Translations under genes and position numbers: made by a program | Source: a virus | Virus record (IMG/VR): IMGVR_UViG_3300012936_000245 | Coordinates: 1 to 20,374 of that record | Direction: 5' to 3' (one strand) | DNA: 20,374 nucleotides | Notes under the pieces: generated by a model | What the model was told of the DNA's origin: nothing | Seen by the model: the letters and a program-made list of their open reading frames with translations, nothing else | The model's database searches: none | Shown here: positions 2,069 to 14,104 of the stretch, piece by piece | Position numbering within the stretch: the first letter of the stretch is position 1 | How the letters are laid out: the number at the start of each line of letters is the position of its first letter

Positions 2069-2329
2069 CTATTTAGGTTCTGACTTTGATCTTTTTCCAA
2101 CTTCAACCATCTCATCACAATCAGGACAATAGATTTTATCGTGATTGTTTATAGACTCTTTTAGGCAAGCATCAATACCGTGTTTCATTATATGTTCTGA
2201 AGTGTACTCTTCAAAATATTTATGACCTTTAGGGCATGAGTAAATGATTCTTAGACAATAAGATTCCAACTCAAGACGAGTTCCATTAGTGATTTTTTTA
2301 CCAGTCTTTATACTGTATATTTTACCCAT
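2069..2329 (-). CDS. Small Cys-rich putative zinc-binding protein
   Basis: An 86-residue protein with C25, C32, H36, C55 and a C68xxC71 pair (YCPDCDEM). This is enough for one or two zinc sites, and the CPKGH and YCPDC elements look like halves of a zinc ribbon. I do not recognise a named family. The ATG shares one base with the tape-measure stop (TAATG), so it is translationally coupled to that gene, and it is followed 4 nt later by the possible papain-fold gene. Its location suggests a tail-assembly helper or small virion protein, but that is inference from position only. Confidence 0.65.
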   Translation of the reverse strand: MGKIYSIKTGKKITNGTRLELESYCLRIIYSCPKGHKYFEEYTSEHIMKHGIDACLKESINNHDKIYCPDCDEMVEVGKRSKSEPK

Positions 2330-5256
2330 TACTGTGAACTAAAGATTTTTTTATTGTGTGCATAATTATTAGTACTTACATATTTTCGGGAGTTGTTTTG
2401 ATTTACTGAACTGAACGAGTCTCCAGATGAATTTTCGACTGATTTTTTATTCTCTTTTTCAAGTTTTATATTATTACTATCAGTTTGGACAGAATCTAAA
2501 GTATTTGAAATACTTACATTTTTAGATTGATCGGTCTGTATAGATTTTGCAACTTTTTCCTTATTCTCTATAGATTTAAGTATTTCCACCGCAGTTGTAT
2601 ATCCAACATCAACTTTCCGACGATCAAAAAAAGTCAATCTTTCATCATTATATGCTTTATCTTCTTCTATTATAGCTTTAATTTGTTTAGAATCTATTGT
2701 TTGATTTTCTACACCTTCTTTAATTTTCATAAAAGCTGAATTTGATAAGTTTTCAGCATATTCAACTTTACCATCATTATTGAATTGCATAATTCTTTTA
2801 CCAGTTTTTAGATCATGTTCTGCATAAAAGTCAGAATAATCATTTTCATAACCGTCTTTATCCGATTCAGTTTTTCGTTCTTGGTAATAAAATGAAGTTT
2901 TGTCCTTTTCCATAGTTACAGTTCCGCTTTCATATTCTTGAATTTCCAAATCACCTTTCTGCCGAGTTCTATTTTTTTGAGATGCTGAAACTTTAGTTTC
3001 ACCCTCTTTAATATCTTCCCTAAACGGATACCAAGGCCCGAATTTAATTGGATTTAGGAATCTATTACCTTCAAATATAGTCATCTCAGGAATTCCAATT
3101 CCAGAAAGTAAACCCATAAAGGAACTCATTTTATCTTTTAGACTATTGAAAACCCCTTTCACTTTATCGAACATTCCAACCCAAATCCCTTTATACCAGT
3201 TCCAAAATTCTGAAAGTTTATCGAATATCTCATTTAAACCAAATTTTTCTTTGGTTTTTTCCCACATCTCACCGAAAGATGTTTTCAATCCAGTCCATTT
3301 TTCACTAAACCATCCTGATAAACCGCTCCATAGACCGATAAAACAAGTTTTAAAACTTTCCCAGGCATTCCCCATATCAGTTTTCAAACCTTCCCACTTT
3401 TCACTCACCCACTCTTTCATACTTGACCAAAAATCTGAAAATGATGTTTTTACACTTTGCCAAGAATATAAAATATCCTCTAAAATAACATCCCATTTAA
3501 CTAAATTGAATAGAAATCTAAATGGAAATGTTAGACCATTCCAAATAGCTTTTAGATATTCAACATATAACCCAAAAGCATCTATACCAAAAGTGTCTTT
3601 GATCAAATTATTCAACCAAACAAATGGAATTTTTATAACATCAAATATTCCAACTATTGCATATTCAAGCCAATCTAAAAGGTTTGAGTATGCTTCAGTG
3701 AATATATCAGTGAAACTAAAAGAATCTAACCAATTAGAAAAATCTTCAAACCCTAACCAGTCAGCAACATAACTAACAATACCTTTTAGAAGGTCAAAAG
3801 GTAAACCGACTATGGTTCCTATAAATCTTGAAATCCCTGCTTTGAGAGTTTCTACGATAGATCCTGTACTTTCATAGACTGCTGACATTTCTTGAAACGC
3901 TTCATATATAGAATATGCTACAAGTGCAATACCAGCAACGATTCCTATGACTGGGAGTAGTGGAGTTATAAATGCCGATAAACTTGAAGCTAGAGAAGTA
4001 AAAAATGTTGAAATAGATGCCGATAACCCTTTTATTGCGGTCATTTTTGTTTCAAATCCTCCACCTTCTCCAAAAAAGTTTTTAAATTTGGATATTGTCC
4101 CATCTTTACCGAATAATCCAGTAATCCCGCCAAACAATCCACCAAACAATCCACCTTTTTTCTTTTCTTTTCCAGATTTATCAGAATCCGACTCTTCACC
4201 AGTTAAAGACTCAAAAAGACTTTGCATCCAAGTTCTCTCTTCAGCTCGTGCAACTTCCTCTTCTTGAAGTTCTGCTGATTTTTCTTGAGATAGTGTTTGG
4301 GATTGTTGATCTTGTAACTTTATCAATTCATCTATTTTATTATTCTTTTCTTTTTCAATTAGGGATGCTTTTTCTTGAAGTTCTAATTTTAGTTCATCAC
4401 CTATATCTTCACCTAATAAAGTTTTAATTTCTTCTAATATTTCATTTTGAGAATTAGTTTCATGTAAAAGTTTATCAAATTCTAAACTAGCTAGTTTGTC
4501 GTCCGTTTTATTTAAGTCTTTTATACTATCACCTAATTCATCGGAGATTGAATTTTTTTCAGATTCCATTTCTGCTATTTGCTTTTCCAAGCTTATTTTA
4601 TTTTCACCTTTTGCTAGGGTTGCTGCCGATTTCTTTTTTTCTATTTCTGAATCTAATTTCTTAAACTTTTCAACTTTAAGTTGATTTTCATCTTCTGGAC
4701 TAAACTTTTCAGAAAGACTCTCACCGAAAAATGGAATTGATGCTACAGAATCACTGAAACCTTTTTGGAGATCAAACATTTTTAGTTTTATACTTTTTGT
4801 GAAAGCATTTCCAGTTATAGACTCTCTTGCTACAGAAACGTCACTAGAATCGGGTAACTCTTTCAGTGCTTCCTTTTTCTCTCTTTTTAGTTTTTTTTCC
4901 TCTTTTTTGATATCTTCCGTTAAATCTAAAGTTTTTTCATTTATAACTGAGATTTTTTTTATCAGTTCATCTCTTCTTACATCATCTTCGGTTCTCAATG
5001 TAACCGACTTTTTATCATGATCGAGAATTTTTTCCAAAAGTCCGATTGAATCAAAAGAGAAATTTTTAATGTGCTTTACTATATCAAGTGAATGTTGACT
5101 GAGTTTTTCTGTTAGTTTAACAAGATTTTCGAAATCTAAATCATTTGAAATTCCTTTATCGAATTCCGAATCTTTAAGATTATCAAACAGTTCCTCTCTT
5201 ATATTTAAACTTTTAGATCCGAAAATCACATTTGATAAATCCATACCTTCACTCAT
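2329..5256 (-). CDS. Putative tail tape-measure protein (T4 gp29 position)
   Basis: A 975-residue protein. Residues 1-345 are highly charged and helical, with likely coiled coil at about 100-130 and 190-340. A Gly/Phe-rich GGLFGGLFGGITGLFG segment lies at about 368-383, and a long hydrophobic stretch at 411-452 contains PLLPVIGIVAGIALVAYSI. A second hydrophobic region is at 478-500. A Trp-rich section at about 595-695 has two related units, WVSEKWEGLKT (616) and WFSEKWTGLKT (649), 33 residues apart. The last 250 residues are hydrophilic. This architecture fits a tape measure, which sets tail length inside the tube. The gene immediately follows the gp26/-1-frame pair, the usual chaperone-tape-measure order. 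A strong SD (AAGGAG, 7 nt spacing) and a TATAAATA box precede the ATG. No sequence match to T4 gp29 could be checked; a fibrous baseplate component is the alternative. Confidence 0.7.
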   Translation of the reverse strand: MSEGMDLSNVIFGSKSLNIREELFDNLKDSEFDKGISNDLDFENLVKLTEKLSQHSLDIVKHIKNFSFDSIGLLEKILDHDKKSVTLRTEDDVRRDELIKKISVINEKTLDLTEDIKKEEKKLKREKKEALKELPDSSDVSVARESITGNAFTKSIKLKMFDLQKGFSDSVASIPFFGESLSEKFSPEDENQLKVEKFKKLDSEIEKKKSAATLAKGENKISLEKQIAEMESEKNSISDELGDSIKDLNKTDDKLASLEFDKLLHETNSQNEILEEIKTLLGEDIGDELKLELQEKASLIEKEKNNKIDELIKLQDQQSQTLSQEKSAELQEEEVARAEERTWMQSLFESLTGEESDSDKSGKEKKKGGLFGGLFGGITGLFGKDGTISKFKNFFGEGGGFETKMTAIKGLSASISTFFTSLASSLSAFITPLLPVIGIVAGIALVAYSIYEAFQEMSAVYESTGSIVETLKAGISRFIGTIVGLPFDLLKGIVSYVADWLGFEDFSNWLDSFSFTDIFTEAYSNLLDWLEYAIVGIFDVIKIPFVWLNNLIKDTFGIDAFGLYVEYLKAIWNGLTFPFRFLFNLVKWDVILEDILYSWQSVKTSFSDFWSSMKEWVSEKWEGLKTDMGNAWESFKTCFIGLWSGLSGWFSEKWTGLKTSFGEMWEKTKEKFGLNEIFDKLSEFWNWYKGIWVGMFDKVKGVFNSLKDKMSSFMGLLSGIGIPEMTIFEGNRFLNPIKFGPWYPFREDIKEGETKVSASQKNRTRQKGDLEIQEYESGTVTMEKDKTSFYYQERKTESDKDGYENDYSDFYAEHDLKTGKRIMQFNNDGKVEYAENLSNSAFMKIKEGVENQTIDSKQIKAIIEEDKAYNDERLTFFDRRKVDVGYTTAVEILKSIENKEKVAKSIQTDQSKNVSISNTLDSVQTDSNNIKLEKENKKSVENSSGDSFSSVNQNNSRKYVSTNNYAHNKKIFSSQ

Positions 5257-5295: not shown

Positions 5296-5481
5296 TCATC
5301 TCATGGATTTTTTATTTCTCTCATTCTCTTCTTCTATGTGATTTACAAGAAGTGAAACATATATTTCTCTCTCAAAAGGGAACATGTCTTCAAGTTCTGT
5401 TAGAGTGAACCTGTTATTGTAGACTATCAAACTATTGGTTCTATAGTAGTTTTCAATATTGTCGTGAGATAGCCCTATGAT
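5296..5481 (-). CDS. -1 frame extension of the gp26-family protein (GT-like tail chaperone domain)
   Basis: An open -1 frame overlaps the end of the gp26-family gene and continues for 61 codons to a TGA at 5296. Counted from the slippery site it reads IIGLSHDNIENYY, then a conserved-looking core TLTELEDMFPFEREIYVSLL and an acidic end NHIEEENERN. Upstream in this frame there is no ATG, GTG or TTG after the last TAA near 5522. The first TTG is 17 codons in and the first ATG falls inside the core, so independent initiation would destroy the domain. A -1 slip on T TTT TTA would give a 300-residue fusion (239 residues of the gp26-family protein plus 61). The end lies 39 nt before the tape-measure start. 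By analogy with lambda gpGT, the extension would help load the tape measure for tube polymerisation. The similarity to small T4-like tail chaperone/gp51-position proteins is from memory. Confidence 0.75.
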   Translation of the reverse strand: MIGLSHDNIENYYRTNSLIVYNNRFTLTELEDMFPFEREIYVSLLVNHIEEENERNKKSMR

Positions 5482-5502
5482 AAAAAAGACTGAACTCCTT
5501 CT
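5407..5502 (-). promoter_or_regulatory. Programmed -1 ribosomal frameshift signal
   Basis: Three elements line up in transcript order. First, the SD-like AGAAGGAG at 5502-5495. Second, 7 nt later, the heptamer T TTT TTA at 5487-5481, in the exact X XXY YYZ phase of the gp26-family frame, two codons before its TAG. Third, after a 5-nt spacer, GGGCTATC (5475-5468), which can pair with GATAGTCT (5428-5421, including two G-U pairs). Directly inside that lies AAACTA/TAGTTT (5452-5447 with 5434-5429). GAACC in the inner loop (5441-5437) can pair with GGTTC at 5411-5407 to form a pseudoknot. The heptamer and phase are certain. The RNA structure was paired by hand and has not been folded computationally. 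Confidence 0.7.
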
Positions 5503-6218: not shown

Positions 6219-6785
6219 TTATTTTTCGTTTCCGTAGTAGTTAGCTGTCCAGTATTCATATTCAAATGAAACTGTTAGTTTGAGAACATCTTCATTCATC
6301 CAACTAACATTTTGTGCTGTTAGAGTGGTTGGAAAGATGTTTCGAAAAGTAAAGGAACATGATTTCTCATTTTCATTCCTTCCAGTATATAAATTTACAA
6401 CTATTTTACTAGAGATATATTGATCATAATACGAACTCCTAAAAAATTTACTAGAATTGTCAGTTTGATACCCTAATATACTTTCCATCCATTCGTCGAA
6501 AAATCTCCGTTCCTCCATATTTGACGAGCATAGAAAAGTTAAATTTAAATCAGTAAAGGTTACTCCGTAAACATGTTTTGATGAAGTTACATAGTCTTTT
6601 CTTTCATCAACTCCAAAAGTTTTCCCTGGCAAGTCAGCACTTTGACATTTAAATGTCAAATTTCTGGAAATTTCAGTATGAGATTTATCTTTTAAAGTTT
6701 TAGGTGGAATTATTTCAACATCCATCAAACTAGTTTTAGCCAAACCTCCAGATAAATGCGATTTAAATTGATTTATACTTTTCAT
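6219..6785 (-). CDS. Tail tube-fold protein, gp54 initiator or gp19 tube-like
   Basis: A 188-residue protein opening MKSINQFKSHLSGGLAKTSL, then LTFKCQSADLPGKTF at about 43-57, a YGVTFTDLNLTFLCSSNMEER segment at about 73-93, and a C-terminal strand pair FRNIFPTTLTAQNVSW ... LTVSFEYEYW. This order (N-terminal FxxxL.GG, 'xaxxPG' loop, FxxW helix, then 'yP..l....w......l...f.Y.yw') is that of the T4 tail tube (gp19) and its baseplate-tube initiator relative gp54. The length is close to gp19 (163 aa) and shorter than T4 gp54 (about 320 aa). Its position beside gp26 and across from gp48 favours the initiator role. It starts 1 nt after the upstream stop. Which of the two it is cannot be settled here, since another tube gene may lie outside the window. 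Confidence 0.75.
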   Translation of the reverse strand: MKSINQFKSHLSGGLAKTSLMDVEIIPPKTLKDKSHTEISRNLTFKCQSADLPGKTFGVDERKDYVTSSKHVYGVTFTDLNLTFLCSSNMEERRFFDEWMESILGYQTDNSSKFFRSSYYDQYISSKIVVNLYTGRNENEKSCSFTFRNIFPTTLTAQNVSWMNEDVLKLTVSFEYEYWTANYYGNEK

Positions 6786-12429: not shown

Positions 12430-12585
12430 ATGAAAAAAAGATTCAAAAACAGTTTTAAGTATGTTGCAGACCATTTAGAAATATTTTTCAGATGGTTTTT
12501 TATTATTTACATCTCAATAGCAATGTTGATGTCACCATTCTTTCTAATGTGGACAGGTGAAATATTATTAGGGGCATGCGGTTAG
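12430..12585 (+). CDS. 51-residue hydrophobic protein
   Basis: ATG at 12430, preceded by TAAAGG, 9 nt after the gp5 stop. The 51 residues start with a basic end (MKKRFKNSFK), followed by one hydrophobic segment at about 19-44 (FFRWFFIIYISIAMLMSPFF) and the end GEILLGACG. This could be a single-pass membrane protein or a small lipoprotein-like peptide, but the Cys is near the C-terminus, so it is not a lipobox. The last 4 bases overlap the end of the convergent PAAR gene. Position downstream of gp5 fits a holin-like or assembly peptide; no family is recognised. It was too short to be obvious and could be non-coding. Confidence 0.5.
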   Translation: MKKRFKNSFKYVADHLEIFFRWFFIIYISIAMLMSPFFLMWTGEILLGACG

Positions 12586-12893
12586 CCTCCAGCTATTACA
12601 TTTCCACTTCCAGATACTACTATAGAACCTCCACAAACAGGTGATCCTACTTTACCAATACCTTTACCTCCAACTTTTACTGTCCCAGAACCTACTCTAA
12701 GTATTTGAGGGGCAGGGCAGTAAACTGGGCCATATTTTGTCCAATAATAATGATGCAACCAACTATCACCTTGTAAGTGTGAAGGTCTTCCATTAACAAG
12801 AACCGTTGTTCCACTTGCAGTTATATTAGTTCTTGGGAACCAAGGGCCGTGACCTGAACATCTATCACCTAATCTACAAACTGGCATTGCCAT
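12582..12893 (-). CDS. PAAR-domain spike tip protein
   Basis: A 103-residue protein opening MAMPVCRLGDRCSGHGPW, then ITASGTTVLVNGRPSHLQGDSW at about 25-46. A late Gly-rich repeat (GSGTVKVGGKGIGKVGSPVCGGS) ends VVSGSGNVIAGG. This is the PAAR pattern. Candidate zinc ligands are H15, H39, H47/H48 and C59. The proline at 4 and repeated V.GxP / V.GG turns form the cone. T4 gp5.4 is the equivalent tip, and the protein would cap the gp5 needle encoded convergently. The start shares one base with the stop of the 403-aa gene (TAATG). It is unusual to find it on the opposite strand from gp5. Confidence 0.9.
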   Translation of the reverse strand: MAMPVCRLGDRCSGHGPWFPRTNITASGTTVLVNGRPSHLQGDSWLHHYYWTKYGPVYCPAPQILRVGSGTVKVGGKGIGKVGSPVCGGSIVVSGSGNVIAGG

Positions 12894-14104
12894 TATAAAA
12901 ACTTCCTTAAAAATCCATTTGAGTAAAGATAATTCAAATATTCAACTCCCGTCATGTACCCGACACCTTCAACATAATAAAATTTGAAATCTATATTACC
13001 ATCATCATCAACAACAAAATCATATTCATCAACACTTGAAACTCCAGCATCAACCTCAGCTACAAGTCTTTCATTTCCATATCTAGTTATAAAAAAATCC
13101 CTCAAATCATTCGGTGCCAAATATATAAATATGATTTGACTTCTTTGATCATTCCCTCTTCCCGCTCTTGAAGTTATAGATTTCCTTGTTTCATCTTCAT
13201 CAGTTTGAGTTACATATGAAGTATTACTACTACCGTAAGTTATTTCTAAAGGTGAATCAATAAGATCACCATTATCATCTTCCCTTTGAATAAAATCATC
13301 ATACTCTTCTTGAGAATAAACGTTACAATCAAACCATTGATTTAAATCACTATCAGTAATGTCATCACCAAACTCAGGGTTTGATTTTTTGAAATTATCC
13401 AACCCCAAATATATATCCAATTTTATTACGAACTGAAATGCGAAAGATGTATTGACTGGGCCAATATATTTTGAATAATTCCCACCAGCTTCTACACTAT
13501 TGTCAAACTTAGCATCCTGCGGTATCAATATAGAAGGAACTTGCGTATAAAGACTATCGACTAAACCTGTTATCAAATACTTACCTTGTTTTGGGTGATA
13601 TTTGACTGAAAGTTTTTTTGGTAAAGATCTTACTGTATTAAAAGAACTTCTTGATGATACACTTGAAGATGGTATTGAAACTGAGGAATTACTTTCACCC
13701 CCATATTCTATTATTGATATTCTATAATAAACATCTTTAAGATCTAGATCAACATCTTCAGGTGGATATGCAGTCCAAATTTGTACCGTTCTGGTACTAG
13801 AAACTCCATTAATTGATGACGTCACCCTCTTCTCTTCAACATTATTTAACTGAACAGTCATCTCACCAGAACTATAATTCATTCCACTTAATGTTGTTAT
13901 GGATGGGCCTCTAGTACCTCTATTCATATAATAATTAGCCCATCTATCGTTAAGGAATGCCTCAGAATCTGGATGAACGTTTGGTAGGTCTGGTCTCACA
14001 TACGTTTTAGTTCCAGTAAAAATACCTCCAGAACTTTTTTCAGTATACGTTTTAACTTCCCAAACAACCCCATATCCTGGAGGTCTTGTATTATTATTTG
14101 TCAC
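12893..14104 (-). CDS. 403-residue protein of unknown function, upstream of PAAR
   Basis: Starts with GTG at 14104, preceded by AGAGAG and overlapping the upstream stop by 11 nt. The protein is acidic and rich in Ser, Asp and Tyr, with no signal peptide or membrane segment. An N-terminal WEVKTYTEKSSGGIFTGT stretch and a Ser-rich linker (SSVSIPSSSVSSRSSF) at about 140-155 divide it. The second half has strand-like VKYHPKQGKYLITGLVDS and a C-terminal VVDDDGNIDFKFYYVEGVGY. I recognise no family. Coupling to PAAR by a TAATG overlap suggests it is made with the spike tip and may be an attached or secreted-like tail protein. That is inference from position. Confidence 0.6.
   Translation of the reverse strand: MTNNNTRPPGYGVVWEVKTYTEKSSGGIFTGTKTYVRPDLPNVHPDSEAFLNDRWANYYMNRGTRGPSITTLSGMNYSSGEMTVQLNNVEEKRVTSSINGVSSTRTVQIWTAYPPEDVDLDLKDVYYRISIIEYGGESNSSVSIPSSSVSSRSSFNTVRSLPKKLSVKYHPKQGKYLITGLVDSLYTQVPSILIPQDAKFDNSVEAGGNYSKYIGPVNTSFAFQFVIKLDIYLGLDNFKKSNPEFGDDITDSDLNQWFDCNVYSQEEYDDFIQREDDNGDLIDSPLEITYGSSNTSYVTQTDEDETRKSITSRAGRGNDQRSQIIFIYLAPNDLRDFFITRYGNERLVAEVDAGVSSVDEYDFVVDDDGNIDFKFYYVEGVGYMTGVEYLNYLYSNGFLRKFL

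Follow-up and report, generated by a model that had tools for sequence, protein, structure and literature searches.

Tail assembly chaperones of T4-like phages were reportedly identified by Vladimirov, Gautam and Davidson in 2022 (Virology 566:9-15, PMID 34826709). Where PRFect (PMC10885494) refers to that study, it describes some T4-like phages as having a short gene and a longer fused gene, with no frameshift, and it is the source given in the phage Adele paper (PMC12846349) for the statement that TAC-N genes in T4-like phages have poly-T slip sites. Since these two papers, in the passages concerned, credit the 2022 study with the two-gene solution and the poly-T sites, the general principle has very probably been published already, and the locus described here is a further example of it.

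The lambda G/GT frameshift is widespread among long-tailed phages, with T4 named as the exception in a 2016 review (PMC5009743). The tail assembly chaperone of the Vandenendeviridae uses the slip site GTTTTT (PMC12846349). In T4, gp26 and gp51 are encoded by two separate, divergent genes; both were tabled as hub assembly chaperones, and gp51 is needed for assembly and absent from the particle (PMC3004832). The gp51 of cyanophages and marine vibriophages is without the first ~200 residues (Sullivan et al. 2010, PMC3037559).

The locus analysed here was found in a 20,374-nt stretch of virus DNA (the window). As in lambda, a short chaperone gene with a -1 slip site near its 3' end is followed by an extension and then by the tape measure gene; it differs from lambda in its protein family (PF12322) and in a slip site that is a T-run, and is likened to it by arrangement. 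The likeness to the Vandenendeviridae, which belong to another phage family, is also one of arrangement: a conserved -1 poly-T slip site at the end of the short form, an open extension, and the tape measure gene downstream. The locus shares the PF12322 families with T4, and its extension matches the gp51 C-terminus; it has one gene with a -1 frameshift where T4 has two genes. We consider it very likely (probability of about 0.93) that two forms of a tail assembly chaperone are produced from this gp26-family gene through -1 slippage at T TTT TTA, the long form carrying a T-like gp51 domain.

The junction and its neighbouring genes

In the 0 frame, the 3' end of the gp26-family gene reads TCT TTT TTA TCA TAG. 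Reading of the minus strand confirmed three claims of an earlier note on this DNA, namely that the gene ends at this TAG, that a T TTT TTA heptamer in exact -1 phase is present near the stop, and that the -1 frame stays open over 61 codons, after which it closes at a TGA (Table 1). The predicted fusion comprises 300 aa (239 + 61), with the junction SFL-IIGLSHDNIENYYR.

Table 1. Positions of the features of the locus, numbered from the first nucleotide of the window
Feature	Position	Strand	Evidence or remark
Tail tube protein gene, gp19-like, just upstream of the gp26-family gene	6219..6785	-	phrog_45 E 1.8e-36, PF23849
gp26-family gene, 240 aa	5475..6197	-	PF12322 E 1.2e-48, phrog_150 E 3.2e-51, hhalign T4 gp26 99.1%
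Shine-Dalgarno-like element, AAGGAG inside, proposed stimulator	5493..5502	-	7 nt before heptamer
Slippery heptamer T TTT TTA	5481..5487	-	-1 phase, exact X XXY YYZ
0-frame stop TAG	5475..5477	-	one sense codon after heptamer
Predicted stem-loop (GGGCUAUC ... GAUAGUCU), possible stimulator	5421..5475	-	starts 5 nt after heptamer
-1 extension, 61 codons (TAC-C, T-like domain)	5299..5481	-	phrog_634 E 1.4e-19, T4 gp51 hhalign, dN/dS 0.07
TGA closing -1 frame	5296..5298	-	read from sequence
Tape measure protein gene, 975 aa, next downstream	2329..5256	-	PHROG tape measure families, best E 2.5e-18

The gene scored 166 bits against PF12322 ('T4 bacteriophage base plate protein'; Pfam cut-off of 24.5) and was the only gp26-family match in the 20.4-kb record, which is a genome fragment. 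The tail tube, gp26-family and tape measure genes follow one another in this order, all on the minus strand. PHROG and Pfam profile matches placed the source region in a T4-like structural module, because the other neighbours are head closure, DNA end protector, and gp53-, gp5-, gp25- and gp6-like genes.

Two further genes of the window were recorded. A gene for a PAAR-motif protein, likely to be the spike tip, is located on the opposite strand (12582-12893), near the gp5-like hub gene (phrog_281, E 7e-18). It is adjoined by a gene for a 403-aa protein without a PHROG match (12893-14104), in the middle of the baseplate module.

Identity of the extension and proposed forms of the chaperone

The phrog_634 family matched by the extension is annotated as 'baseplate hub assembly catalyst'. 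Profile alignment (hhalign) placed the extension on residues 206-243 of T4 gp51 (E 2e-4). T4 gp26 and T4 gp51 both belong to PF12322 (E 9e-64 and 4e-52, respectively), which covers the first 200 residues of gp51. These matches identify the extension as the C-terminal domain of T4 gp51. Since gp26 and gp51 of T4 share PF12322, the latter is a paralogue of gp26 to which the extension domain has been fused in frame; the short and long forms in T4 would thus come from two genes. The T-like character that the earlier note had given to a 'compact acidic domain' was therefore supported, and was refined to the gp51 C-terminal domain. Unlike T4, most of the relatives sampled have one frameshifted gene. 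The C-terminus of T4 gp26 (RGLKEFFELL) aligns with the slip region; no heptamer is present at the end of the T4 gene (GAG TTC TTT GAG), and the two Phe codons are kept.

The earlier note had also expected annotations to miss the extension, and this was borne out. Annotations either split it off or miss it, many cyanophage records giving a separate small 'gp51 baseplate hub assembly catalyst'.

The gp26 part and the extension were modelled as separate chains, with AlphaFold used for gp26. The gp26 model had a pLDDT of 88, and the extension model was all-helical with a pLDDT of 75. The best PDB fold match of the gp26 model among 350,542 chains was the HK97 tail assembly chaperone 2ob9, both chains of which were in the top three; the match is weak (E 0.3, probability 0.66, TM-score of 0.44 on the target), and gp26 is about twice as long. 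Foldseek comparison of the extension alone with PDB folds gave no confident match, and when gp26 and the extension were compared with PDB sequences by profile search, the matches were all unconvincing and were set aside. Given the gene order, the T4 genetics and the weak HK97 fold match, a G/GT-like role is the best reading of the gp26-family gene. The arrangement of chaperone, -1 extension and tape measure gene proposed in the earlier note is supported by the slip site, the gene order, the relatives and the dN/dS values given below.

From the sequence, we infer that slippage occurs at some rate and gives two products with different roles. Most ribosomes would stop at the TAG and yield a 240-aa short form (TAC-N, lambda G-like), while a minority would slip back by one base at T TTT TTA. 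The latter would translate another 61 codons and so produce a 300-aa long form with the T-like domain that is called gp51. If lambda G/GT is a guide, binding and coating of the tape measure protein would fall to the short form, and binding and recruitment of tail tube subunits to the long form. The slip rate would probably be set by the upstream Shine-Dalgarno (SD)-like element and, in this clade, by the downstream stem-loop.

Conservation, candidate stimulators and competing explanations

The junction was read in 80 related IMG/VR loci of 30-82% identity, a scan for the motif and the open -1 frame that the earlier note had suggested. An in-phase TTTTTT[A/C/T] was present 0-6 nt before the stop in 80/80 relatives, as was a homologous -1 extension, 55-66 codons long in nearly all; neither had been lost in close relatives. 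The outliers in length were one locus with 33 codons (L048) and one with 508 (L051), which may reflect single-base differences or errors. In the latter (L051:4705-6230), the -1 frame of gp26 continues for its 508 codons into the tape measure frame, as either a natural fusion or an assembly error. Beyond these 80 relatives, T TTT TTN was found in most of the further groups sampled. The heptamer and the -1 extension were both present in cyanophages S-PM2 and P-RSM6, Vibrio phages phi-Grn1 and D480, Aeromonas phages AsFcp_1 and 65, Stenotrophomonas phage Ps15, Caulobacter phage Cr30 and phages of Agrobacterium, Rhizobium and Sinorhizobium, and were represented in Vibrio Schizotequatrovirus, Angelvirus and Menderavirus.

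Codon choice was analysed in 49 representatives after 90% clustering. The codon before TTT ended in T in all 49 (~75% elsewhere in the same genes), and the first Phe codon was TTT, again in 49/49 (~67% elsewhere in the same genes). In a set of six close relatives with 71-82% gp26 identity, the extension had a dN/dS of 0.07 when read in the -1 frame, compared with 1.6 and 2.4 for the other two frames; the value for gp26 itself was 0.12. The extension thus evolves as a protein in the -1 frame, as is also seen in the alignment. The conservation in 80/80 loci and the dN/dS of 0.07 are decisive for the arrangement being real. A +1 shift was rejected, as most relatives have a stop within a few codons in the +1/-2 frame.

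The SD-like element and, in about a third of the lineages, a downstream stem-loop are likely stimulators on the sequence evidence. In the relatives, the upstream element takes the form GGAGG or AGGG and mostly precedes the heptamer by 9-10 nt. The Glu codon at this position is GAG in 19/26 lineages and in 207/784 cases (26%) elsewhere. The predicted anti-SD pairing exceeded that of synonymous reshuffling (Fisher p 2e-4, after 70% clustering, which removes relatedness only partly). No ATG, GTG or TTG is present at initiation distance from the element in the window. The element resembles the SD stimulator of E. coli dnaX. The excess of RNA structure over shuffled sequences peaks just after the heptamer (mean z of -0.9 at offsets 0 and 4), fades to -0.4 by offset 40 and is near 0 in most other places. 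A stem starting 3-9 nt after the heptamer and stronger than 95% of shuffles was found in 12/36 lineages, and the stem-loop is weak or absent in most. The window stem (GGGCUAUC/GAUAGUCU) is individually non-significant (z of -1.2); its pairing is kept in 92% of pair cells across six relatives, in which no compensatory changes were seen, so that covariation is uninformative. There was no Rfam match.

The extension could instead be translated separately, through re-initiation near the gp26 stop, as a small stand-alone gp51. Such a product is implied by many cyanophage annotations, including that of S-PM2, where an ATG 2 nt after the stop is annotated as starting a separate gene (the predicted fusion junction in this phage is ...LEGLQSFFRISMFYNNLENYYR). 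An ATG overlaps the gp26 stop in Caulobacter, Rhizobium and Vibrio relatives, and an ATG falls within the first 7 extension codons in 19/49 lineages (any start in ~20/49). In the window, re-initiation is nevertheless unlikely because the first starts fall inside the conserved domain: the first candidate is a TTG at codon 18 (5430-5428) with no Shine-Dalgarno sequence in the bases inspected before it, and in close relatives, which are missing this TTG, it is an ATG at codon 33. The claim of the earlier note that no ATG, GTG or TTG precedes ELEDMFPFER thus does not hold for TTG; an independent start with a good SD, which the note had regarded as evidence against a fusion, was not found in the window. 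Furthermore, the heptamer is kept whether or not a start exists, and T4-type gp51 is a covalent fusion of both domains. Overall, we regard separate translation as very improbable as the explanation of the locus. In the ~20/49 lineages with an early start, a small free product may also be made. In five loci (L085, L086, L091, L096 and L097), the T-run heptamer occurs together with an ATG that overlaps the stop of gp26, so that these phages might produce a free gp51 domain as well as the fusion.

RNA polymerase slippage on the T-run, in place of ribosomal slippage, is less probable still. The site is homopolymeric and has 7 or 8 T in 8/36 lineages (70% clustering), but transcriptional slippage is disfavoured because exactly six T are present in the other 28. 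A run of this length is shorter than those usually tied to strong bacterial transcriptional slippage. The codon phase is also kept, and the site is accompanied by the SD-like element and, in some lineages, by downstream structure.

A chance arrangement or a recent frame-disrupting mutation has a negligible probability: in sequence this rich in AT (GC 0.30), the base composition gives ~0.007 for an open frame of 60 codons and ~0.005 for a T-run in phase within the last 9 nt, each thus being ~0.5-0.7% likely, but the conservation in 80/80 relatives and across several phage families, together with the dN/dS of 0.07, has already refuted this explanation.

Other arrangements among T4-like phages

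Separate gp26 and full-length gp51 genes were found in Acinetobacter phage 3014 and Aeromonas phage phiAS4, and one 246-aa in-frame fused gene in Campylobacter phages F379 and IBB_35. Campylobacter phage CP21 was considered as a possible +1 case and rejected, as its relatives F379 and IBB_35 carry the in-frame fused gene. The gp51-like gene of CP21 (L095:1242-1990) appears broken relative to these two, which is probably a sequence or record error.

The Ackermannviridae and related Vibrio phages (L092, L093, L102-L105 and L087) have kept the -1 extension, and the canonical heptamer is absent. The Ackermannviridae gp26 ends read ATT TTC ATT TAA, GTT TTC ATC TGA, CTT TTC AAG TAA and CTT TTT CGC TAA, with no tandem heptamer among them, and some of the Ackermannviridae and related loci have a TAATG overlap at the gp26 stop. 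Slippage on the single Phe codon, or a restart at TAATG where it is present, may operate in these phages.

The distribution among lineages suggests that frameshifting is the older state, and the two-gene and fused solutions the younger. A broader reading can be put forward tentatively, and as a whole we hold it to be somewhat doubtful: that frameshifting is ancestral and commoner in the T4 superfamily, where it relies on the SD-like stimulator and a U-rich heptamer, joined in some lineages by a stem-loop; that gene duplication and in-frame fusion took its place in T4, Acinetobacter and Campylobacter phages; and that the Ackermannviridae use a non-tandem slip or coupled re-initiation. If this joint reading is true, what is new in it may be the analysis of stimulators, together with the map of lineages and the variant seen in the Ackermannviridae.

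The missing ~200 residues of cyanophage and vibriophage gp51 are explained by the present arrangement, their gp51 being the -1 extension of gp26. For annotators, gp26 and 'gp51' should be joined as one frameshifted gene. Many T4-like phages come under the general G/GT rule, to which T4 was the exception in the 2016 review (PMC5009743), and we suggest that T4 gp26 and gp51 be read as the short and long tail chaperones.
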